Assembly (NCBI RefSeq): GCF_021917145.1
Contig: NC_061078.1
Span: 9,933,604 to 9,997,603 of the forward strand
From: Hypomesus transpacificus
Taxonomy: Eukaryota; Chordata; Actinopteri; Osmeriformes; Osmeridae
Direction of reading: 5' to 3'
Length of the DNA stretch: 64,000 bases
Shown here one piece after another: positions 3,101 through 43,934 of the stretch. The notes under the pieces were generated by a model, which made no database searches, was not told where the DNA came from, and saw only the letters and a list, made by a program, of their open reading frames with translations. Position numbers and translations under genes: made by a program. The stretch's first letter is position 1. Each line of letters opens with the position of its first letter.

Positions 3101-4842
3101 AAGCCATCGACTCTACAGGCAAGTCAAATTGGCTCGTTAGCATAGGCCTACCGGTGAAGTACCCACCTTGCTGTTTCAATGGCGCCCTCGTGTGGGAAGT
3201 ATAAGGAAAACATCGCAATAATTCTGATTCTGTTAGCTTCTCCCTCATTCTTTTCTCCTCTTGTAATTATCAATAATTATTATTAAAAACAGTATCAGCT
3301 GCATCTGTGAGAATGAGCAAAGATTTAGGGTAAGTGATATTATCTTTCTATGTGAAGCATCCATTTGTCACATGGCAAACCTCCAAGGGAATGATGGGGA
3401 CACTAAATGTCAATTACGGGGTCAACACCACAGGAATTCCAGCCAGTTTATGAACTGCACACCTGTGATTCCACCCAGTGTGGGTGGAATTGTGACCTTT
3501 GTTGACCATTATTGTACTCCACAAACCCTCTAAAAACAGGTAATGAAACCCAACCCTCAGGAGTGAAACCTTACATGTTTAACATGACCCGTGGAAATAC
3601 AATCTCACTTTCCATGCAGATTACTGGTCATGATCTCATGATCTCAGCGTGGTTGACACACATACAGGTCAGATTTCAACAGAGGAAGTGGCCCTATGTC
3701 TGGGGGACACACAAGCAGTGCTCTCACAGAGAAAAGGGCATTGAGCAAATCCCCTTGGAGACTTCCCGGGGTGCTCCCATGTCCCACGCCCCCTTTATGC
3801 TGCTCCACCATTGTGAGTCTGGTTTCATAAGAGGAAACAGGACCTGAGAAAAGGGGGGACATGACCGGGGGTGGGGGCCACTGTACTGAGATGTGGGCTC
3901 AGAGGTTTGGTAAAGCCTGATTAAAAGTGCACGCTAAAGCTAACTCACACTTAGGGTCTGAGAGCATCCCCGGGTGCTCTCAGGGTGCTTCCCAGTGTGC
4001 ACCGGGTCAGTAATCTCCTTTTTGCTGAAAGCCTGGCGCCTGCTTTGTGCCAAGCAGCGAAGAGAGTTCTTTCAGGCTGGTTATGAAGCAGCTATAACAA
4101 TGCATCTGTTGACTCTTTGATGGTTCCACCAGGAATGCATTTGTCTTTCAAACTGTCAATACTAATTATGAATTTATTTCAAAGTCAAGACATATCAATT
4201 CGACTGTAAACCATTATTCACTCTTGTGAACCTGTTAAACTGTCATATTTAAAATGAAAACTAAGATATTTGGTGTGACATGAGCATTTTACTAGACATT
4301 TAAAAACATTTCCTATTTATACATGTCCTATACATTTCAAATTGCATCAAAACCTGTACAATAAAAACAATTGCAGTATAGTGTTTGTTTTCTAAATAAT
4401 GTTGAGATGTATTTTATGTTTGGTTTGCAATAGTATGACTGAAATTAATGAATGTTTTTACAAGGAAGTGGTATAGGCATGGTCTGCTACTCTTGGCAAA
4501 GTGGTCTGTAAAAAAAGAAAATCTAGCCAAATGAAGAGTTGGGAGTCCTTAAGCTAAATGTGATGAGCTACCGAAACATATTAAATAACAATTTCTGCAA
4601 AACAATGACTGATTTGGCATGCTTAAGAAGGGAAGCCATAATCAGATTGACAACTGGTTAATAAACTATAAAGCTTAACAACAAAAGATGATTATAATGA
4701 ATGCAATCAATTATATGTCAAACTAAAATTAGTATTTGGGACATTTGGTATCTACAAGTTCAACACAAATCTGTATGGAAAAAAGGATGTGGAAGAGTCC
4801 CATATTGACTGATATGCAACACTCTAGGTCAGTTTTCTGGAC
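148..4842. other. gene-free stretch left of aph1b
   Basis: I see no convincing coding exon on either strand here. All open frames are short and lack splice context or family resemblance. The stretch is AT-rich. It contains a palindromic octamer-type motif (2766-2782), a CTCF-like motif (3181-3195) and, around 4030-4060, two TTGGC/GCCAA-type half sites that could bind NFI proteins. It probably holds regulatory or intronic sequence of a neighbour beyond the left edge. Confidence 0.5.
2766..2782. promoter_or_regulatory. palindromic POU/octamer-like motif
   Basis: The sequence TTGCATAATATATGCAA is a perfect 7+3+7 palindrome overlapping an octamer (ATTTGCAT, beginning at 2765). Paired inverted TTGCAT half sites are the kind of arrangement that POU-domain dimers recognise. 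Function is inferred from the motif alone. Confidence 0.3.
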
Positions 4843-4848: not shown

Positions 4849-5513
4849 TGTCCTCTAGTGATGATGGACAGTGAATGTTGCCCCAACTTTCCAAAATCAC
4901 AACCAGAAATTAACATCTGAGGTATTACTGGATAAGCACTATAAAATGGCTTGGTACAATCACAAGGAAAAATGGGATGTGACCTCATGTTTATTGAAGG
5001 CACAGAACCAGAAAGGGAGCAAAGCCCATCGAATGGTGGGTGGGTACCATCATTTGAAGGAAAAAGAAAAGTCTGGACAAAGACCGGCAAGTAGCAAAAC
5101 CTACAACCCATTACTAAGATTCTGTGATTCCTTTTTCAGTAACAGCAATCTTGTCAATATCACTGCCAAACAGAACCGGATGGCACAATCTAAAGAAAGC
5201 AGCTTTAGGTCTCCAAGAGGGGCAAAGGAAGAGAGGTTGAAGAGCGTTGCTCCCTCAAGGAAAACAACTCACCTGGGTGGCAAGACACCTACAATAGCAA
5301 TATTCTACAAACACTGAAGTTCTTACCTACAGTACAGCAATACCCTGATCCATCAAATTTATGCAACACAGAACATAACAATAATTAGACCTTAAAAAAA
5401 GAAAACAAATATAAATCAACCCAGTGTGTCCACATTATTGAGTGGTTCTGCGTGTGTGTGTGTGTGTGTTAGAGAGGCATTTGGATAGAGTCCCGAGGCT
5501 GTCTCGTGTAGTG

Positions 5514-7862: not shown

Positions 7863-10732
7863 TTTGTGATTTAGAAACCAAGGAGACGAACAAAAATTAG
7901 CAGCTAAAACAGTTCCTGACGCGCCCTGTCCTCTTTCTTATTGTTCAAGTGACCTTGTTTTTTCAGTCCTTTAACGCTATAAAGATACTACCTTACTGAT
8001 GTACTTCGTTAAACCCCTGATAATCTAAATGTGTTATTTAAATGTAATATAATTATAAGACGCTTTTGTAGACCCACATTTATTCTGCTTCTGAACACTT
8101 CCTGTTCTCGTTTTCTGAAGTCATGTGACAAAGCAAAACAGTGAAGAACTTGTGCTGAGTTTTGGCTCGCAAGTTAAATGTATTGTTGTGTAAACTCGTG
8201 TTTGATTTTTCTAGATGTTTCCGGGTACTGGAATGGTGTTTGTTTAAACTACTTTGGTGCAATACCTTATAAATAAATGTCCTGTGTCTGGAACATTTTT
8301 CACGACGAATGCCCAGTTTTTACACTTTCTATGATCTATGAGTTCAACCACAGCGCCATCTAGGGCCTGTGTTTACAGGTTAGCATTGTCATCACCCTAG
8401 CCTGGTCTGATGATTGCCAAAGCCCTATTACTGTTAAAAACACATTGCAAACCATTGCAACCGTAGGGCAATCTTTTCCAGAAAACCCACTAAACGAAAA
8501 TCAGCTGCTTTCATTGTATAGGCTGAACATGACTAGCCTATATTTGAATCTTTTGTGCAAATATTCACACAGCAGAGGTCACTGTCCCCTCTCAAACAAA
8601 CAATCATTAAGTGGAAGGTCGGTCCTGTCGGACATTCCCATTGGCTTTCTAGTTCAATCACCTTTCGTTGCATGGAACACAAATTTACTTCGACGTCTAT
8701 TAATACAACATGTTTTGTGAAACATCACCAGGTCACCATGAACTAAAACCTAGCAGCTCCGTTAATCTTATTCTTAACAAAACTGGACAGTTAAAATGAT
8801 GTGGAAATATTATAACAATTATAACATCACGTGTTATGAATCATAAACCTTACAGTAATGTCGCATGAGAGACCCATAAGTCATTAAGTCGATAATTATT
8901 TGCGAGCCTTGGGGGTTATGAAAGGGTAGAAGTAGGCTATTGTTGCTGTTACACTTGAAGTTTGTATAATAACAGCTACAGTTATTGGTGATACACAGCC
9001 TAGCCTGACGGGGAATTCTGTCATGGTACTCGGGCTTTGCTTCACGTCTTCAGCTTCACTCAAGCAATCAACTACAGGTGTGCTAATTGAAGGTATAAAA
9101 GCCTTCCCCTTTAAAGACTTGAATAGGCTACTGCATGCATTCACAGACCCGGACACACATGACATGCTCACATCATGCATGATGTACCTGCATATTGTGT
9201 AATTGCTGCCAACCTCCACCATCCCCAGCTCCTCCATTTTCTGTATTATCACTACAATTTTTGTAATGCTCTGTGAAGCCTTTTTGACTCGCTTGTTAAA
9301 AGGTTTGTACACAGAATGTTAAATGTTTCCTGTCCACCTGGGATCTTATATTCTGCTCCCTGCATTGCTGTACTTGTGCTATGCTATATGCTCCTAGACA
9401 GGGAGTTTGACCTTATATTGAACCACAAATACATTTTTCTTTGCAATAAATGTTGCAATATAACGGTAAACTACAGTTAAATCAATACATTTTCTCTGAT
9501 ATTACATCACAACCATTGTTTAGGGTTGTTGTGTGGAGGAGTCAAATCAGCTCTTGATTTATGTTGCTGTAGGCTTATTAGCTGCATGGTCTCATGCCTT
9601 GTATTTCTAGCAGCCCACTGTAACCTACATTTGTCTGATCATGAAAAAAACAAAAACATAATTCAAGGCAATAATCTACATTGAAAGAATACAGTAGCGG
9701 ATTGTTGGAAGAGTTTCGTCATGATGTGGGTTGGATAGACTTTAAGGGCGCATCCCTTTAATTTTAGGGACGTATGACTTTTTCCCGTGGCGGGAGGGGT
9801 CCATGACTCTATTAAACCAAACTGCAAAAAAAGCCGCTGCAGTAGACTACTAAGAATAGCATTTGAGGACGGAAGGTCTAGTATGTTTAAACCATGTAGG
9901 ATAAATGCCATTAATCTCACTTTTAACTTTCTCCCAACTCAACATGTAGGCTAGGCTTGTTCAGCTGGTGAGACAAGCATCCGAACCTATAGCAAAATAC
10001 GAACATCAACATCTCTTTCATTTCGTGAAAGACAACACCAGACAGGTAAGATTCAATGTTATTTATGACTTATGATATAGCCTACAATATTATTTGAGAA
10101 GAATCAGCAAATGTCTGTTTGCTTTTCACCAATGCGACGTGACTTATTCACGAACATTTCAATATATTTTTCATAATGTAATTCCATGTATCCCCACATT
10201 TTAGGTATTAAAGTATTTCAATGAAATATATTGATAACCACAATAGTCTGCGAGCATAGAGGAGTGCTAAATCAGATGCGATCCCGACTTTCAGCACCAA
10301 GGACAGGGGCACAGACGTTGTGGCGTAGTTCGAAACAAACATAAGCTACTGCCCTCTACTTCCAAGCAGTTTGTTCTAGCCCAAGCTCCAACGTCAGTGT
10401 TTTGTTTGTAAACTCAAACAAAAACAACTAACTAAAAAAACTGAAATAGAGAAGTGATTTCAGAGATAATACACAAATTGTATTTGAGTATGGACTAGAA
10501 CCCAAATCTACTTGCTTGTTAAGTTTCCTCCTTTCCAATTTTCAAGATATACCCAATGTACAGGCTATTAGTAGGCTAAACTGTAAGAGCTCATTAAGAA
10601 CCATGGCAAGTGGGTTAATAATGAGGAAGACGAGCAGACATTGAGTTAATGATAGTGATCAGATTTGATTTAATAATTTTAGGGTACAAGATCTTTATTG
10701 ACCATTTGAAATGTGTTTCACAGGTGGGGAAA
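7863..10732. other. divergent aph1b-islr2 intergenic region
   Basis: This stretch holds the aph1b promoter side (near 7863-8300) and the upstream region and probable non-coding first exon of islr2. A pyrimidine-poor but usable acceptor (TTTCACAG, ending at 10723) sits just before the islr2 start, so the 5' UTR of islr2 is probably spliced. A CTCF-like motif lies at 8353-8366. No coding exon was recognised; the 138-codon minus-strand frame at 8896-9312 has no family resemblance. Confidence 0.5.
8353..8366. promoter_or_regulatory. CTCF-like motif
   Basis: GCGCCATCTAGGGC differs at only a few positions from the well-known GCGCCATCTAGTGG form of the CTCF core. It lies between the divergent genes aph1b and islr2, a plausible insulator position. 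Binding is inferred. Confidence 0.35.
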
Positions 10733-12865
10733 ATGGCGTCTGTATCTATGCTTTGTTTCTTCCTGTGGATTTCTTCTGTCATCAGCATTGGACACGGTTG
10801 TCCTGAGCTATGTACCTGTTCCGACAAATATGGACGTCATTTTGCAGAATGTTCGTACAAAGACTTGGTTGAAATCCCTGACGGATTCCCCCCTAACGTG
10901 ACCACTCTTAGTCTTTCTGCTAATAAAATCTCTCTGATCGAGTTTGGAAGCTTTGACAATGTGACCCAAGTGACTTCCTTATGGATGGCCAACAATGAGA
11001 TACTTTCCATTAAGCCGGGGACCCTGGCCCACCTGATACAGCTGCGTAACTTTGATATCAGTCACAACAGAATAGTGGATTTCCCTTGGGAAGATCTCCA
11101 GAATCTCACAGCTCTGCAGCTTCTGAAGATGAACCACAACAAGATGGTCAGTTTGCCCAAACATGCCTTCTTTAACCTCAACGATCTGAGGTCGCTGCGT
11201 CTCAACAATAACAGGTTCACGACTATTCCAGAAGGGACATTTGATGGCTTAATCTCCTTGTCTCATCTGCAGCTCTATAACAACCCGTTCACATGCTCCT
11301 GCTCCATGGACTGGCTGAGAGACTGGATATTGAAGACCACCATGACCATCCCTGAGCAGAATTCCATTGTCTGTGCAACCCCAGAAAAAGTGAAAGGAGC
11401 AATTATTGTGAAATTGCCTGAATCAAAGTGCATGTCCCCTATCGTCACCATAACATCTCAACCAGACATTGGCAACACAACACTCTATGATGGTGCAGTG
11501 CTGATGTTGACCTGTGAAACTGAAGGCAATCCAAATCCTGAAATCATCTGGAAAATCCATACCGAAAGACACAATGTGACATTGAGTTTGTCGACAGAGG
11601 AGGATGACTCAGCAGAGTCGGTAGAATCCAGGGAGCATACTAACATCTCGGACAAACCAATCAAATTCTTCCACAATGGTACCCTTATCATATCACCAAT
11701 CAGCAAAAAGGACATTGGCAACTATAGCTGTTTAGTAACAAATGAATTTGGTAAAGCTGAGGATTTGGTGTCTGTAGTGATTGTGGATGCACCAACACCC
11801 CCTCCTATAAAAAAGTTGATTGAAACTCCCATGGTGCCAGAAACCAAGCCTTCTATACATCAACCAGATGTCATAACGTCCATCTTCGACACATTCCATG
11901 TTGCCAATGTAGAGAGAAAGGACATCATTGGTAACATCCCAACTCTTCCACCATCTGCTGAAGTTAAAACTAAATATACAGACCGGGTTGTGAGGTATCC
12001 AACCCGTGCTACCAAATGTGGCTTGAATAGCCAATCACAATACATCTCCAACCATGCCTTCAACGGGACCCTAGACGATGTCAAGCAATACACATTTGAC
12101 TTTGGCATCATTGCCTTGGGGGTGTCAGAGACAGAAGCCAAAGTACGTCTTAACCCTCTTCTCCTACCTAAAGACAAGACCAGTATCCAACTTAGCACCT
12201 CAGAGGAGTTTCACTCTGTCAACAAAGAGTTTCACAAAACATCTGAAGTCTCAAGAAGGGTAATCTCAGACGGCTTGTATCTATGTGTTACTGCTGACCA
12301 CAGACACTCTGCAGTCCAGTGGTCTAGGATTGAAGATGGTGTCAACACCTATCTGTTTAGGGGTTTACGCCCTGGAACCAACTACTCCCTCTGTCTCACC
12401 TACAGAGGGGAGGACTGTGAAGTCCAAGTACTCTTTGCGACGAGGAAAAGGGTTCCAGACTTGTTAATCATCATCTCTGTCAGCATATGCCTTCTTACTG
12501 TGTCCACTGTGCCTCTGCTCGGGGCCACATGCTTTCATTTAGTGTATAAATACAGAACCAAAACCTACAAGCTGATTATGAAAGCCAAAGATCAATACCA
12601 CATAGAGAGGAATCTAGGTGCCAACTTTAACATTAGAGCTCCCAATGCTGAGTCTCAAAGGAAGATCTACATTAGTGAGATAGATGAAGGAGCAGAGAGC
12701 GTGGAGGGCGACAGAGAGGGGGATGTGGAGGGGAGCATTGCGACAGAGTCCTTTACTTTATCTCAGTACAGAGGGAACCTAGATGACTGTGAGGTAGGGT
12801 CTGAGTATAGCGACAGACTTCCACTAGGGGCAGAGGCAGTGAATATTCGGAGTAATTACAAATAG
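10733..12865 (+). CDS. islr2: ISLR2/LINX-like LRR and Ig membrane protein
   Basis: A single coding exon of 710 residues (human ISLR2 is about 745). The order is: signal peptide (1-22); cysteine-rich LRR N-cap starting at C23 (CPELCTC); about five leucine-rich repeats (roughly 50-175) with typical LxxLxxNxF/L spacing; LRR C-cap (NPFTCSCSMDW); one Ig C2 domain (about 230-350) ending in the NYSCLVTN type of F strand; an acidic, glycosylated linker; a fibronectin-like segment; one transmembrane helix (about 577-605); and a cytoplasmic tail of about 105 residues. The transmembrane helix separates it from secreted ISLR. In mammals ISLR2 is a neuronal receptor that modulates axon extension and guidance. 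The frame is open upstream to 10649, but the ATG at 10733 follows a splice acceptor and begins the signal peptide. It is convergent with stra6, as in human. Confidence 0.93.
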   Translation: MASVSMLCFFLWISSVISIGHGCPELCTCSDKYGRHFAECSYKDLVEIPDGFPPNVTTLSLSANKISLIEFGSFDNVTQVTSLWMANNEILSIKPGTLAHLIQLRNFDISHNRIVDFPWEDLQNLTALQLLKMNHNKMVSLPKHAFFNLNDLRSLRLNNNRFTTIPEGTFDGLISLSHLQLYNNPFTCSCSMDWLRDWILKTTMTIPEQNSIVCATPEKVKGAIIVKLPESKCMSPIVTITSQPDIGNTTLYDGAVLMLTCETEGNPNPEIIWKIHTERHNVTLSLSTEEDDSAESVESREHTNISDKPIKFFHNGTLIISPISKKDIGNYSCLVTNEFGKAEDLVSVVIVDAPTPPPIKKLIETPMVPETKPSIHQPDVITSIFDTFHVANVERKDIIGNIPTLPPSAEVKTKYTDRVVRYPTRATKCGLNSQSQYISNHAFNGTLDDVKQYTFDFGIIALGVSETEAKVRLNPLLLPKDKTSIQLSTSEEFHSVNKEFHKTSEVSRRVISDGLYLCVTADHRHSAVQWSRIEDGVNTYLFRGLRPGTNYSLCLTYRGEDCEVQVLFATRKRVPDLLIIISVSICLLTVSTVPLLGATCFHLVYKYRTKTYKLIMKAKDQYHIERNLGANFNIRAPNAESQRKIYISEIDEGAESVEGDREGDVEGSIATESFTLSQYRGNLDDCEVGSEYSDRLPLGAEAVNIRSNYK

Positions 12866-12873
12866 TGGAGTCA

Positions 12874-13499
12874 TTAAAGGGGTCATAGAATGCAAAACCG
12901 AGTTTCCCTTGTCATAATCGAATAACGACAGTTTGGTGGGTAAAATGGACATACAGAGAACCTCAAGTCCCATTGACACCCCTTTCCTATGAAAATCTCA
13001 CAATTTGAAACTGCTCCTGTAAAACGGTAGAATCCAAAAGAAGCCCCAAGTTCACGTCAACTCGTGGCTGTACATTATTTGGCTCTGGTCTGTACCTTTG
13101 TCAGGCCCCAAAATGTACATATAGTAAATGTATAACTGTTATGTTGCTTACAATGCTAAAAACAAACCTAATACAAAGTTATGCTTAGGCTACGACACTG
13201 AAGTGCGAGTATTTCACTAGTATTACAAGGAACGGGTGCTGTTGGCCATGTTGCGTCTTTGCTCCACAGCTTCGCTCGTTGTAAACCAACCAATCAGCTC
13301 GCAGCTCATCTAAATATTCATGAGCATACCATAAAAGGGAGAAAACCTCTCGTTTCATTCTAGGGATATTTCACAGGGTTGCATTAGGGCGCATAGAACA
13401 GCACCTGGGCCATTTTCAGCCCAACCAATGTTACATACCCTATTCGGAGACCTTAAGGAACAGTGTGAAATACCCTATAAAATCATTCATGACACCTTT
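12874..13499. mobile_element. TTAA-type non-autonomous DNA transposon (MITE), right end broken
   Basis: The left end reads TTAAAGGGGTCATAGAATGC. The right end, read in reverse, is AAAGGTGTCATGAATG, giving an imperfect inverted terminal repeat of about 16 bp around roughly 620 bp without a transposase frame. Elements flanked by TTAA are typical of piggyBac-like families. The left TTAA is present. On the right the expected TTAA is missing and the sequence runs into a copy of stra6. The element lies inside the islr2 3' UTR. Confidence 0.55.
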
Positions 13500-13545
13500 C
13501 TATTTGTGATCATCCAGGCCTATCTGGGTGACTTTAATATTGGTG
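13497..13545 (-). repeat. 49-bp inverted copy of the stra6 intron 13/exon 14 junction
   Basis: These 49 bases are the perfect reverse complement of 16435-16483, which holds the end of stra6 intron 13 and the first 28 bases of exon 14. Being on the opposite strand of the duplicate, it cannot serve stra6 as an exon. It begins exactly where the neighbouring MITE loses its right terminus; the shared TTT could be junction microhomology. Confidence 0.9.
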
Positions 13546-14217
13546 TTGGTGTTTGATTTCTGAGATTTTGATTGGCTTGACATGAGAACTATAACACCCA
13601 GGTAAATAAACGCCATATACTGTTGCCATAACCAATTACTTAAAGTTAAACTTAAAGATACCTCTTTGATGTCTCGATGGAAAAACATACTTCACATACA
13701 TTGGAAAATTAGTTGGTTGAATGTTTTGGATAATTTTAGGTCATTGGTTCACAGTTCAGTCTATTTCCTATAAACATGCTAGAGTATAAATACATGTTAG
13801 CAGGTAGAGGTACATTTTTTAAGAGCATTTGCCAGTCAAGTGTCCCATGGTTGCAAATTAGTCAAAGTAAATGAGTGTAGTCTGCGTAACAGGCAAGTAG
13901 GGGTAAAGATCATTTGTACTGTGTCCTAAATGTCTCGGCACTCAACAGTTGCACTCATGAATGTGTTCGTCACTCTATTGTAACTATGCTGGTACATGTT
14001 GTTATTAACAAAAAGTGATGCTAACAAAATTAAGAAATGTTTTATGCTAATACTGCATGTTATTAGTATTATATTGTAGACCCAAGCATTGTGTCAGTAA
14101 CTATAATAATAACTCTTTCTATCTTCAACTCTTAACAATTCTATTTTCTGCTGTTTGGGTTAGGAGTAGGCTTTAATATGTTTATTTCTCATGTTACTGA
14201 CTCTATGTGCCTGAACT

Positions 14218-14223
14218 AATAAA
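14218..14223 (+). terminator. candidate polyadenylation signal of islr2
   Basis: AATAAA lies about 1.35 kb past the islr2 stop. It is the first good plus-strand signal seen in this interval, in an AT-rich setting. Confidence 0.45.
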
Positions 14224-14437
14224 GTTAGATTAGTAAAACATTTTAAGTGTTTTTACTTTTACCAATGAGTAATACACATTTTAAATGTTAATAATTGTCA
14301 CTTCAATTTCTTCAATTCAGATATTATTTTACACTTGGACACTGGAGATAGAATCATAGATTAAAAGTGATAATCTGTGATGGAAATGAATAGAGAACAT
14401 GCAACGTCTTATGTCTTTCCATACTAAACGAGAACCC

Positions 14438-14443
14438 TTTATT
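14438..14443 (-). terminator. candidate polyadenylation signal of stra6
   Basis: TTTATT on the plus strand is AATAAA on the minus strand, about 780 nt beyond the stra6 stop. The two convergent 3' UTRs would end about 200 bp apart. Confidence 0.35.
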
Positions 14444-14558
14444 TTTTCAATAGAAATATCAAGAAAAATGTTCTCTGTTATTACATGAATGTTAATGTAA
14501 AGTTATTTCTGAAAGTTTGCATACAGTTATCCTGGAATTGCATTAAATCAGTAGATAT

Positions 14559-14881
14559 TGGGACCACACTTTGCATTAAGTAATAGCACATAACAATAAC
14601 TTTAGTAAAAACATTGTAGATACATAGGTGTTCATGCTATAGGTTATTACAAAAGTTTAAGAAGGCCCAGTTACAATAGTGGTTGTGTCACCAAAATAAG
14701 ATCAATGTTAACATTTGCATATCCCTACATCGCCCAACCACTCCAATACCAAGTTTCACTACCTTAATGAAATGTAACTACATTGCAGACACTTTGTAAC
14801 TACTATATTGTTACTATTGTTACTGGGTATTGCTAAATAGTTGCATGGCAGTTATGTAACCTTAATGTAAAGTGTTACCAA
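14559..14881. mobile_element. degenerate inverted-repeat element (MITE-like)
   Basis: The left end contains ACACTTTGCATTAAG and the right end, read in reverse, GGTAACACTTTACATTAAGG. These form an imperfect terminal inverted repeat around about 320 bp with no coding potential. The GGTAACACTTTACATTAAGG-type terminus resembles dispersed repeats common in fish genomes (from memory). Decay suggests an old insertion, in the 3' UTR of stra6. Confidence 0.45.
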
Positions 14882-15221
14882 CATTGGACACATCAGACAA
14901 AAGGTAAGACAACCATCAAGATTATTGCAAAACCTGATAATACACAAATGTACGTTGAACTGAAAGTTGAATCTGAACAGAAGGACACAAAAAGAAATCT
15001 CAAGATGCATCAGTGAAAACGTTTGGCTGTATATTTAGCAAGGGAGCCAAGTCAATCCATTCAACCCAAATTTCTGTATTCAAATGAACTATGAAAATTC
15101 GACGTCCACATTCAAAGCCAAGGTCAATAGAGAACATATAGGACAAAGCAGGAGCGTATCCACCTAGCTGTATGCCAAAGTAACTCAGCCACAACCATTC
15201 ACAGTTGTCTCCCAGTTAGAG

Positions 15222-18200
15222 TTAGTTAGCCCCAGCAGTGGCGGCTGTCTCGACAGACTTGACAGGTTCCTTTTTGCTGCCCTCCTTGGTGGTGCGGTTG
15301 AGGGCCCCATTGATGAGGCTGTCCGAGCTCTGGAGCTGGAAGTGCTTCCTGGACCCTAGAAGGGATGGGTTGTTGACCAGAGTGTAAAGGAGTTGCCAGC
15401 GGGCCCGGTTCTGCCTGCTGTTGGTCACCTTGTTCTGTCTCTTCTCCTGTTGGACCATCTGGATCCCTGAAAACATGGAGGGGGCAGGCTGTCAAGGCAG
15501 AGGAAACTGAGAAACTGATGCTAAGAGGTCCAAGGGTTCCCTTCTCAAAGAGCGTAGACATTAAAACAACTGTGGTTTTCAGTTGTAATTGTTAGCAAAA
15601 TACAAAGATTTCTCAACTGTGTGTGAATGTGTGAGTGCCTATGTTTTTACTCAGAATCACCAACCTTCCTCTGCATCACGAATTTTCTGCCCTGCACTTC
15701 CCCCTTGCTGTGCTGACTGCAGTAACAAAGCACAGAAAGCCTTCATGACAGGGTGGCACTGGCTCACCTCCACCTTCAGGTAATGGGCGTAGTAGCGATA
15801 AGCTGTAGGTATCAAGGATGAGGAGGGGCATGGGTGGGAGGGGGAAGGAAGCAAATACATTGACTTTTAATTGACATTGCCACTAAAGGGCCAATCGAAC
15901 AACTCGGTTTCTGTATTTGTCATGTATGGGACCGTGTATTTCATTGCTGTAATAAAAGAAAACCATAAGATATTTTGGATATCGTTTATAATATTATTCA
16001 TGTTCATGGCCATGTTCTACACAGTTACTATGAGGCCCCTCTACCTGGATCATAGGACTCTGCAGCTCGGTTGATCAGACTGATGTCCATACGGCAGAGG
16101 TGGATGACGTTGAAGAGGGCAGTGATCACCATTCTCCATATGGCAGCTATAAGTCCCACCATGATGTTGACCAGGAAGAACAGGTAGGTCAGCAGGAACA
16201 GACTTCCTCTGCAAATGACATCGCAATCGAAGGCAGTTGCAGTTCTCAGATTGAATACATGTAGGTTGAAGGTATTACATCCGATGGAAAGGAAAATAAA
16301 TCTAATTAGTGTGTCATTTTAACATCTAGTTGTTTACGTTTGTGTGAATGCTGTCTCTACCTGTTATTTAAGTCTCTTGTGCCAGCATCCTTTTTCACAA
16401 ATGCAAACTTAGCTGTCACATGCTGAAGAGCAACCACCAATATTAAAGTCACCCAGATAGGCCTGGATGATCACAAATAGAAACAATTACAATTTGGCAA
16501 AGAAAATAAACACAAACATTTCAAAGGTTGAGGATTAAGATTAATGATATATATATATATATATATTCCCATATAGTGCACATAAGGTGTATTTGTCTAC
16601 AGTATACTGTATGTACATGAAGAATGAACAGAAACAGAAACACATCTACCTACCATGCTTTTGCAGCAATTTGGAAGAGGATGAGGTTCTGGCCATATAA
16701 AATGGGTATGATGATCAGGAACACCAGAAACAGGAAACAGATGAAGAACACCACAGTCTGAATGACCATTCCTGAAGAGGGAACACAGAAAATGTCAGTG
16801 CTTTTTAGTGCAATGGATTCTCAAATCCAGCTTTTTTACATTTTACTTAAAAATGGAGAAGAAACACCTCAGCATGATTAATGTTGAAATTATAATTTGA
16901 TGAGACAAGATAATTCTATACTATAAATGTTTTATATCATTAGAAACATATTGCACCTAAAGAGATAACTGCAGCTTGATATCCTGTGAAGCCCATCCAG
17001 CAGACAATACCAGGTTTGGAAGGGCGGATAGTCTTCTGGCAGTTGTAGACGTTGTAAATATCTCCCTTGTACAATCCTTTTAGGTTTGACCTATTGATAG
17101 AAAGATTAACAGTTTGATGTTCTGATGTTCTGGTATAACTGTGCATACCCCTTCATCATTGTTTATCACGTATTTAAAGCAAGTCAAATAATGGTCCTGC
17201 TGTGATTACATGGAATAAACAAGGGACATAATTTTGTCATTAAAGCTTTGTTGTGTTGTCATTACCTATGAAGGATCATGGATCTCATTAGCATTACTAG
17301 GTTGACCAAACAGGACAGCGTCAAGGCACAGAGGTAACACACTGCAAACACAAAAATAAAGATGAAAGCTAAAAATAGAAGATAGTGATAAGTGCAGAAA
17401 ACAAATCTAAAATGCAGTATCATGCATACTTTTATAACAGTCACTAAAAGAAAACAGCTGCTCACCTTCCAGACACCACGTATAGTGGATCACAATTTGG
17501 ACCACCTCCATCCTGTCGTCTGATAGGACGATATTAAAGCCAAGCAGAAGGAAGGCAATGTTCTCATCAATACCAGCACGGACAATGTGAAGAGTAGGGA
17601 TTACCAAAATGACCAGTAGCAATGCCACCTGAGAACAAAGAACGGAATTGAGGTTAAGAGGTTACCATGAAAAAAACAGTTTTTGTGCTATGACAAAACA
17701 AAAAAATCCCTAAAAATATCAATTTGAATATTGAAGTCACCTGATATATTGCCACAACAGACACAAAAGTTGAGATTGCCAATTTAAGTGGAAACTGGAA
17801 CTCTAAAAAGGGAGAATGATTGGCAAATTCAGTTAAAATGTTGGCAATTCAACAACATCTTAAATGTTTTAAATTATGAATTGAATGATTCAAGATGAAT
17901 GGCCTTGGTATGTATCCTACCTTTCTCTGCTGTGTAGATGTAAGACTTAATTGCATCAGATATCCTTTCTGTCAGTTTAGGTTTGTCGGCTATTGAAGTG
18001 CTACTGTACAAAATTCAGCAATAATCTCAGTAATCACGATTCAGACGACATTTGAATGTTGTTTCATAAAATGGTGACCGTTTCTTAAGGGTTAACTATA
18101 GTTTTGTCTGGGAAAGTTTTTCTCAAATATTTTAAACATGTTTTATCTTAATTTAAACACCTGTTGGAAGACTTTTTCTTCTTTAGAATTGACTTCACAT

Positions 18201-41000: not shown

Positions 41001-43934
41001 CTCTAAAAACATAATTTAAAAGAAAAGTTGTTACTGTTTTCCCTTTCGTTAATCTGCGCTTTGTTTTGGTTTGGTATTTTGCACACGGCACAAGCACAAT
41101 TGGCTGCAGAACTACAAACTCTGCCAAAGCCTACTTTGTCGATGTTGATAGTCAAAATGGCAAAGAAATCTGTGGTATGGCAGCATTTCATTAAAGTACA
41201 TTTACAAAGTACCGGGTGACGCAAAAACGTTGAATGCAAACTCTGCCAACAACGGTTTATTTTTTATAGTTCGATGTCGAATATGATGTAGCCTACCACC
41301 TGAAAAACGTAAGTTGGTCTAGCCCTACCTCGCTCATGCTAACACGCTGGGTTGAAAATTGAATATGCCTATTATAAGAATCACATCCAAATCGAATGAT
41401 ATTATCTTCTCCGGCCAAGACAACAAAATCTTTCTCTGTTGCAACGTTCCCCACTCAGCTTCTACGTAAGTCCGCATGCTGCTAGTTTTCAGGCAGTGAT
41501 AAGCGCGCTCTGATGATTTGCATGTTAAACAAACAATATTTTTATTTGTAGTACATTGTAAGAGATACTAAATACCATTGGCATTCGGTTACAAAAGGAC
41601 TGGTGATACGAGTCATATTATTAGTAGGCTATTAGCAGTTGAATCTGCAATGTCCAGCAGCCATTGACTCAGATTGCGAAAATGTTTTTTTTTTTTAAAG
41701 GGTTTTCAGACACTTTAGTCGAGTCTTGATCGACAAATAAAATCTTAGTCGGGGACAGCCCTAATACACACCACACCATACCAATTTAGTGTGAAATTAT
41801 GTAATTCTATCCATCGAGTCTTGATAAAATCTCCCTCATCTACAATTAATTTATTTTCACAGGCGACTGATAACAGAGTCCAAGGTTAAGTTGAAGTACC
41901 AACACTTGATTACCAATAGTTTTGTAGAGGTAAGTCTAATTGAGAATTCACATATGCAGCGGTGTGGCACATTAATTCCATGCCGTGCAGTACTGTGTTG
42001 GTATCAATTTAACAAAGTAAAACTGTGTGCACCTAGTTATGTTTGATAGGTATTGGTGTACTTGTTTCCGTGTTCTGTTTTATAATAAACTGATAAACTA
42101 CGATCAGTTTAAATCTCGGTAATCATACCCCCCAAAATGATATTGCATTGGGACTATTAAAGACATCAAGACAATGGAAATTGTGCTTCAACATCACTTC
42201 AGAAGAAATGTTTCATGAAACATTTCTCATATTTTGTTCACCCCCCTCATTGCTCAGATCCCATGCTCCTCGGCTCCTTTCACAGTATTCCAACACGCCA
42301 TAAGAATCTGGAAAGCTTGACGTATACACAGACTAAAAATGATTGATTCAAGGAATCTTCTGAATCAATGCTCCTTTCTGTTTTCTTGTCTCAGTGCAAT
42401 CGACTGTTAAAATGGTGTCCAGCACCCGACTGCCATCATGTTGTCAAAGTCCAGTACCCAGATGCCAAGCCTGTGAGATGCAAATGTGGACGGCAGTTCT
42501 GGTAAGGGGATAGTCATAGTCAGCACGTCATGTGTTTTGTTGGATGGTTTAAATGTTTTTTTTTTTCTCTCTTCTCGATCATTTTATCCATGATTAGTTA
42601 GATCTGTCATTTTGGAATGTTAATTGACATGGCAAACACCTAAATGTAGACATTAGTCAGTCAGAAAGTATCAGTGTATTGACCTGATTTTATTCTTGTT
42701 TACACACCATTGCAGCTTCAATTGTGGTGAGAACTGGCACGATCCTGTAAAATGTAAGGTATGTTATATATACAGAACCTGCACATGGCCGTGGCAGATA
42801 CTCCAAAGAAAGAGTTCCTTAAATATTATTATTGCGTATGTCCTACCTGATTTTAAACTTTCTGTAAATTTTTTCTCCATATTATTTAGTGGTTGAGAAA
42901 ATGGATCAAAAAATGTGACGACGACAGTGAAACGTCCAACTGGATCGCAGCAAATACAAAGGTATTTAAAGGGATACTTCACTCAAAATGCAAATTGACC
43001 TCACTTTATGTACACAAAGCAAGATTATTCAATCTTGAGAGTCAGAGACCAATATATGGCGTAGTTTTCTCAGTGTTCTCACCCACCTCTTACTTTAATT
43101 GTTGAATGGAAAACAGTGATGGTGCACTGATAAATGATGGCATACTCCAGCACAAACATGTAGTTGGATTATACCATTGCAGATCATGGCACTTTAATTG
43201 TTTTGCTTGACATTTTTTCAATGTTAAGTGGTGGGTACGCAAACTAGGCCATACAATATGTCATACCTGACTCTGACATGAAATGAGGTGAATGTGTATT
43301 TTGAGTGGGCTATTCCTTTAACCATCTTAAAACGTATTTGGTCCACTGCAATGTGTGACCGGACAAGTCAACTTTCAACTTTGGCCGTCAGGAGTGCCCC
43401 AAATGCCATGTGACCATTGAGAAGGATGGCGGGTGCAATCACATGGTGTGTCGAAACCAGAATTGCAAAGCAGAGTTCTGTTGGGTGTGCTTGGGACCCT
43501 GGGAGCCGCATGGATCTGCTTGGTGGGTGCATTTCCATCTCAACTGGATGTTTACAAGTTTCACCTATCCTGGTGACCCTTTATTTTGCTTCGCTTGTTG
43601 TCAACTCCATATTTACGTTTGCCACTGCCATCAAAGAGTTTGGATCTTTTTTTCAAGTCCTACATTCCCACTCCTTAAGTCATCTTCTTTTACATATTTT
43701 TTCACACAGATCACACAGTAGCTGTGGGTAAAATGCTAACTGAGCACACGGTCTGTCCTACTTTGTCTGGGTTAGTTATCGTTTCTATGCTAACATTCAA
43801 ATTAAACTCAATGTCTCAAGCTCAATTAGCAGCAGACGACCCCAAAGTCCAAAATTGTCTTAAAAGGAAACATGCAGAGTAGTCACCATCTGTCCTGTCC
43901 GCTGAGAATAATGACATTTCCAAACTTGAGTGTG

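Follow-up and report, generated by a model that had tools for sequence, protein, structure and literature searches.

How does a perfect inverted copy of a splice junction from one gene come to abut a transposable element just downstream of its neighbour? The window analysed here, meaning the whole 64,000-nt stretch of Hypomesus transpacificus DNA, raises this question beyond the stop codon of islr2, where a MITE runs directly into 49 nt that also occur, in the opposite orientation, in the convergent gene stra6. An interpretation made from the letters alone (the sequence-only reading) had explained the arrangement by a template switch during repair of a break at the transposon end, and had taken it to be recent.

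An inverted fragment of stra6 lies beside the MITE

The inverted copy beside the MITE is real. Positions 13497-13545 (plus strand) are complementary to positions 16435-16483 at 49 of 49 nt (100%), with 2889 nt between the two arms, which confirms both the exact reverse complement that the sequence-only reading had reported and its source some 3 kb away on the other strand. When the whole assembly (437,198,280 bases) was searched with the 49-mer, allowing up to three mismatches, it was found in two places, namely the copy and its source; the insert is thus an exact inverted copy of an identifiable nearby sequence that has a single other place. To set this against chance, the window was simulated 20 times with a first-order Markov model and each simulation scored for its longest non-simple inverted exact match, which measured 15-20 nt; in the real window with the copy masked it was 24 nt. 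The odds of a random source lying as near as 2.9 kb are about 1e-5. The stretch 13500-14100 was recovered in the assembly only at its own place and at the source piece, and is otherwise single-copy, so that a second haplotype or paralogue of the right flank was rejected; only one allele is represented in the assembly.

The gene on the left has a plus-strand reading frame of 738 aa at 10649-12865 (stop codon 12863-12865), whose product matches LRR_8 (E 2.3e-21) and I-set, an Ig-like domain. Such a combination of LRR and Ig-like domains is what we would presume for islr2, and the name rests on the earlier reading together with the convergent stra6 neighbour. On the minus strand, three joined reading frames match STRA6 (PDB 5sy1, which we take to be the zebrafish protein) with E 1.2e-52. 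The stra6 exon at 16361-16462 (minus strand) begins at 16462, and the source comprises the last 21 nt of the preceding intron (16463-16483) and the first 28 nt of this exon, exactly as the earlier description of an intron end plus the start of the next exon had it. Since the first AATAAA past the islr2 stop lies at 13605-13610 (plus strand), the MITE and the 49-nt copy are probably both within the islr2 3′ UTR. The left MITE edge also forms an ATTAAA at 12873-12878, 7 nt past the islr2 stop, a possible early poly(A) signal for this gene.

The MITE is complete and its right target site is altered

An assembly search with positions 12874-13545 as the query returned 2081 candidates; the scoring covered 40 of them, the window itself included, and gave 61 matched pieces. 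The TTAA MITE of the sequence-only reading is thus a real, multicopy element. It occupies 12878-13497 (plus strand), reads AGGGG...CCT and has a predicted terminal hairpin. On its left it is preceded by an intact TTAA (12874-12877), 8 nt past the islr2 stop. The family match covers query positions 1-626 and ends at 626, corresponding to window position 13499, which is also where most right-end matches stop among the 40 of 2081 candidates scored. Within the same 40, six other full-length copies are 84-90% identical to the window MITE, and the identity of pieces of its 3′ half reaches 94%.

Among the other copies, TTAA is present at 13 of the 15 left ends printed and at 34 of the 39 right edges read. 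Four of these 34 right ends (L022, L039, L042 and L047) are less sure, having small changes that adjoin the TTAA, and the remaining five (L017, L028, L031, L034 and L038) have an altered right TTAA. L014 and L016 have common flanks and count as two non-independent copies: they lie on different contigs with nearly identical sequence on both sides of the MITE, which places their site in a duplicated or repeated stretch. The exact right-end pattern of the family occurs 33 times and is followed by AA in 31. In the window, by comparison, the right edge reads TTCT where the family has TTAA; TT, the surviving half of the target site, remains at 13498-13499 and the copy starts where AA belongs. Given how regularly AA and TTAA follow the other right ends, the joint coincides exactly with the edge of the element. 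To speak of a broken MITE that loses its right terminus was therefore overstated, since the element itself (AGG...CCT, 12878-13497) is complete to the last base. The earlier claim of an intact left TTAA holds, and that of a replaced right TTAA holds for its AA only. What is missing is this AA and, possibly, some host DNA as well.

In the available text of PMC6004289, a TTAA target and an AGGRR terminus are the hallmark of T2/Kolobok MITEs, and the present element resembles them in both respects. The AGGRR motif is found in its terminal inverted repeat, the left end being AGGGG, the usual right end of the family AGGGG when read on the minus strand, and the window's own right end AGGTG. A TTAA target-site duplication is likewise found at the level of the family, the window copy itself having it whole only at the left. 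Judged by target and AGGGG end, the MITE would fit T2/Kolobok better than piggyBac, which was set aside on these grounds, the comparison being with the T2/Kolobok description only. The elements in the available text come from Xenopus, whereas ours is from a fish. A search of viral contigs with the MITE left end gave no match. When every TTAA pair in the window was scanned for terminal repeats, none passed the threshold; the scan also misses an element at 42966-43321. This second element lies between two intact TTAA sites and has inverted ends AGGGA/AGGAA; it would seem to be a T2-type MITE too, from a different family.

The joints between MITE, copy and host

At the left joint, TTT (13497 and 13498-13499) is common to the MITE end and the source, giving a 3-nt overlap of MITE and copy that bears out the three shared T bases pointed out previously. 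At the right joint, a tandem TTGGTG (TTGGTGTTGGTG, 13540-13551), which appears to run across the joint, is compatible with more than one joint position and may represent 6-nt microhomology or slippage. If the left joint were placed at random, it would come to lie within 3 nt of the element end at 4 of 726 positions (~0.006). A predicted fold of the single-stranded DNA pairs the two MITE ends in a helix that closes at 13499, with an energy z of -2.3; none of 20 shuffled sequences folded at so low an energy. In its final 12 nt (13488-13499), the window MITE differs from the six full-length copies in two respects, one missing base and one C to A; these changes possibly reflect error-prone synthesis near the joint, or chance.

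Age of the copy

Perfect identity, intronic bases included, had been taken to imply a recent event. This claim finds weak support: zero differences in 49 nt bounds the divergence at about 6% only and is barely fewer than the MITE's own private divergence predicts, with a P of about 0.05 that rises to 0.34 as the assumptions are relaxed. Against the six full-length copies, the window MITE has 24 private differences in 575 scorable columns, a private divergence of 4.2% (95% range 2.7-6.1). Were the copy as old as the MITE, 2.9 differences would be expected in the copy plus the intronic source, and the probability of finding none would be 0.054 (0.014-0.15 over the 2.7-6.1% range). At the central rate this probability becomes 0.09 under the weaker assumption of 40 nt copied plus 18 intronic, and 0.19 if the 40-nt copy strand alone is counted; the most cautious assumptions bring it up to 0.34. 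On these figures the 49-nt copy is probably younger than the MITE insertion.

Other inverted repeats and other MITE edges

For a view of how unusual the pair is, we surveyed 23 sequences totalling 249 kb, that is, the window and 22 stretches chosen for holding the MITE, for exact inverted repeats whose arms measured 22 nt or more and were separated by 10 nt or more. There were 15 such repeats, and only two of them were abrupt at both edges and did not consist of MITE termini, namely the 49-nt pair and one pair in L020. The latter (L020:4928-4950 / 5273-5295) is a perfect inverted pair of 23 nt with 322 nt between the arms. It has no evident target-site duplication, is found roughly 180 nt away from a member of the islr2 3′ UTR MITE family, and could represent a small MITE or, alternatively, another templated copy.

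A 75-nt stretch around the joint was tested for four altered right ends out of the five. At the joints of L017, L028, L031 (wide L052) and L034 (wide L053) there was no local exact match of at least 12 nt, with one exception in L028, a 14-nt inverted match some 55 nt beyond the joint. Filler as a recurrent feature of the MITE family was rejected, none being present at these four joints, and in this small sample the templated event at the edge of the islr2 MITE looks single, a one-off. L028 also contains, at 3774-3896, a 31-nt inverted pair with arms 61 nt apart, in the flank beyond a MITE right end with TTAT in place of TTAA.

Template switching as the probable origin of the copy

The locus is best read as a templated insertion that arose through template switching, TTT being the microhomology at the left joint. 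More broadly, we think it likely that the 49 nt represent the scar of a local templated insertion, whether made by a template switch or by templated repair. An old T2/Kolobok-type MITE would already have been in place 8 nt past the islr2 stop when, later, a DNA end or stalled nascent strand arose at its right edge, terminating in TTT. This end would have annealed to the TTT side of the stra6 intron/exon boundary, 2.9 kb off and in inverted orientation, and 40-49 nt would have been copied from stra6 before the strand detached. The detached end would then have been joined to the host sequence on the right, replacing the AA of TTAA and maybe host DNA too. The lesion may have been a cut at the MITE end or stalling where the MITE hairpin closes, and the enzyme polymerase theta or delta, acting in MMBIR-like or alternative end-joining repair. 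Both the order of events, with the copy later than the MITE insertion, and the direction of synthesis are ones that we infer.

Since the source includes intron, the template was not spliced mRNA and would have been DNA or unspliced RNA; a retro-copied spliced mRNA is ruled out by the 21 intronic nt in the copy. An earlier residence of the MITE beside the source was also ruled out, there being no TTAA adjoining 16483. Several features fit templated insertion less well. The distance of 2.9 kb exceeds the range, within 100 bp, that was searched by the MMBIR survey in the available text of PMC8421209, and 49 nt is longer than the typical ape events in that of PMC7954356. The right joint is without proven microhomology, and the age comparison fails to reach significance under most assumptions made. 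Of the template switch in break repair that the sequence-only reading had proposed, the templated insertion is the supported part, and a break at the transposon end is a possible initiator.

Such a break, if there was one, might have been made by a transposase. A Kolobok-like enzyme would have cut at the element end, in an abortive excision or a faulty insertion, and end joining would have patched the site with stra6 DNA. This is a narrower version of templated insertion, with odds that overlap those of the broader one, and taken by itself we consider it unlikely. The joint does lie no more than 3 nt from the element end, and templated inserts at transposon breaks are known from the available parts of PMC4490562 and PMC2895639. 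However, with the helix closing at 13499, a stall at the predicted hairpin base is as good a reason for this position as a transposase cut. The identities of 84-90% among full-length copies and at most 94% among 3′-half pieces (40 of 2081 candidates scored) leave recent transposase activity without support, and this divergence would speak mildly against a recent cut; the lack of local filler at the four altered right ends tested, of five, points the same way. Slightly less probable still is a switch driven by homology, with nothing lost. Because the copy itself holds CTTTAA (13532-13537), on the host side and oriented as a normal MITE end, the joint between MITE and host may originally have read CTTTAA and then TATTGGTG. 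A pre-existing 14-nt inverted homology with the stra6 exon (13532-13545) would have led to the copying of about 36 nt, with a return at TTT, and the right target site would survive as the TTAA at 13534-13537, which lies inside the copy and is also present in the stra6 exon. This would account for the position at the MITE edge without any break, but eight more host bases (TATTGGTG) would have had to agree with the exon already, an improbable coincidence.

Whole-genome amplification is known to generate inverted chimeras joined at short overlaps, and a chimeric molecule or some other error of library or assembly might resemble what we see; against this stand two clean joints, a single-copy right flank and a location inside a 15.8-Mb contig, and we judge it very unlikely. 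The two arms bound a 2987-bp interval (13497-16483) as perfect inverted repeats, and might also be taken for the termini of a 3-kb transposon. We rejected this idea, giving it next to no chance, on the grounds that the right arm is a stra6 splice boundary and coding exon, that no target-site duplication lies outside the arms and that the 49-mer has no place in the assembly other than the two arms.

Discussion

The case belongs with known templated-insertion scars, and its reach is longer than short-range surveys consider. As far as the available texts go, MMBIR insertions have near, inverted templates and microhomology (PMC8421209). The present event is like them in being an inverted copy of a nearby template with microhomology at one joint; it differs in that the templates of that survey are within 100 bp, whereas here, in the assembled genome of a fish, the template is 2.9 kb off and the copy adjoins a transposon. 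Tc1 breaks in worm germ cells give polymerase-theta templated inserts in 24% of deletions (available part of PMC4490562); P-element breaks, for their part, leave T-nucleotides (likewise, PMC2895639). The likeness here is templated DNA at a transposon edge, but those inserts follow excision of the element, whereas our element has stayed in place and polymerase theta is no more than a candidate for the enzyme. The short-range four-point template switches of apes, in the accessible portion of PMC7954356, also yield a reverse-complement copy through a switch out and a return; they have a median of 12 nt and a maximum of 128 and are modelled in one fork, whereas our copy is 49 nt and kilobase-distant. 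Class 2 templated sequence insertion polymorphisms (PMC5110952, in part) are similar as small patches without target-site duplication at a repaired break; they originate at distant loci and are believed to derive from RNA, whereas our source is local and contains intron. Yeast breaks, according to the available text of PMC11724301, acquire both local and distant inverted insertions.

No new mechanism is needed for the 49-nt copy, and it has no sign of a new function; we propose none. Its interest is as a clean example, from an assembled vertebrate genome, of inverted templated insertion over kilobases at the edge of a transposon, and it illustrates how neighbouring genes can come to share perfect inverted repeats. 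A further idea, which we hold to be quite improbable, is that MITE-end hairpins launch kilobase-range template switching long after the element has died. If true, the hairpin ends of dead MITEs would seed perfect inverted repeats between neighbouring genes. Here, the stra6 3′ splice site would lie in sense within the islr2 3′ UTR, where it might serve as a cryptic acceptor, and a 49-bp hairpin might form in read-through transcripts of the convergent islr2/stra6 pair.
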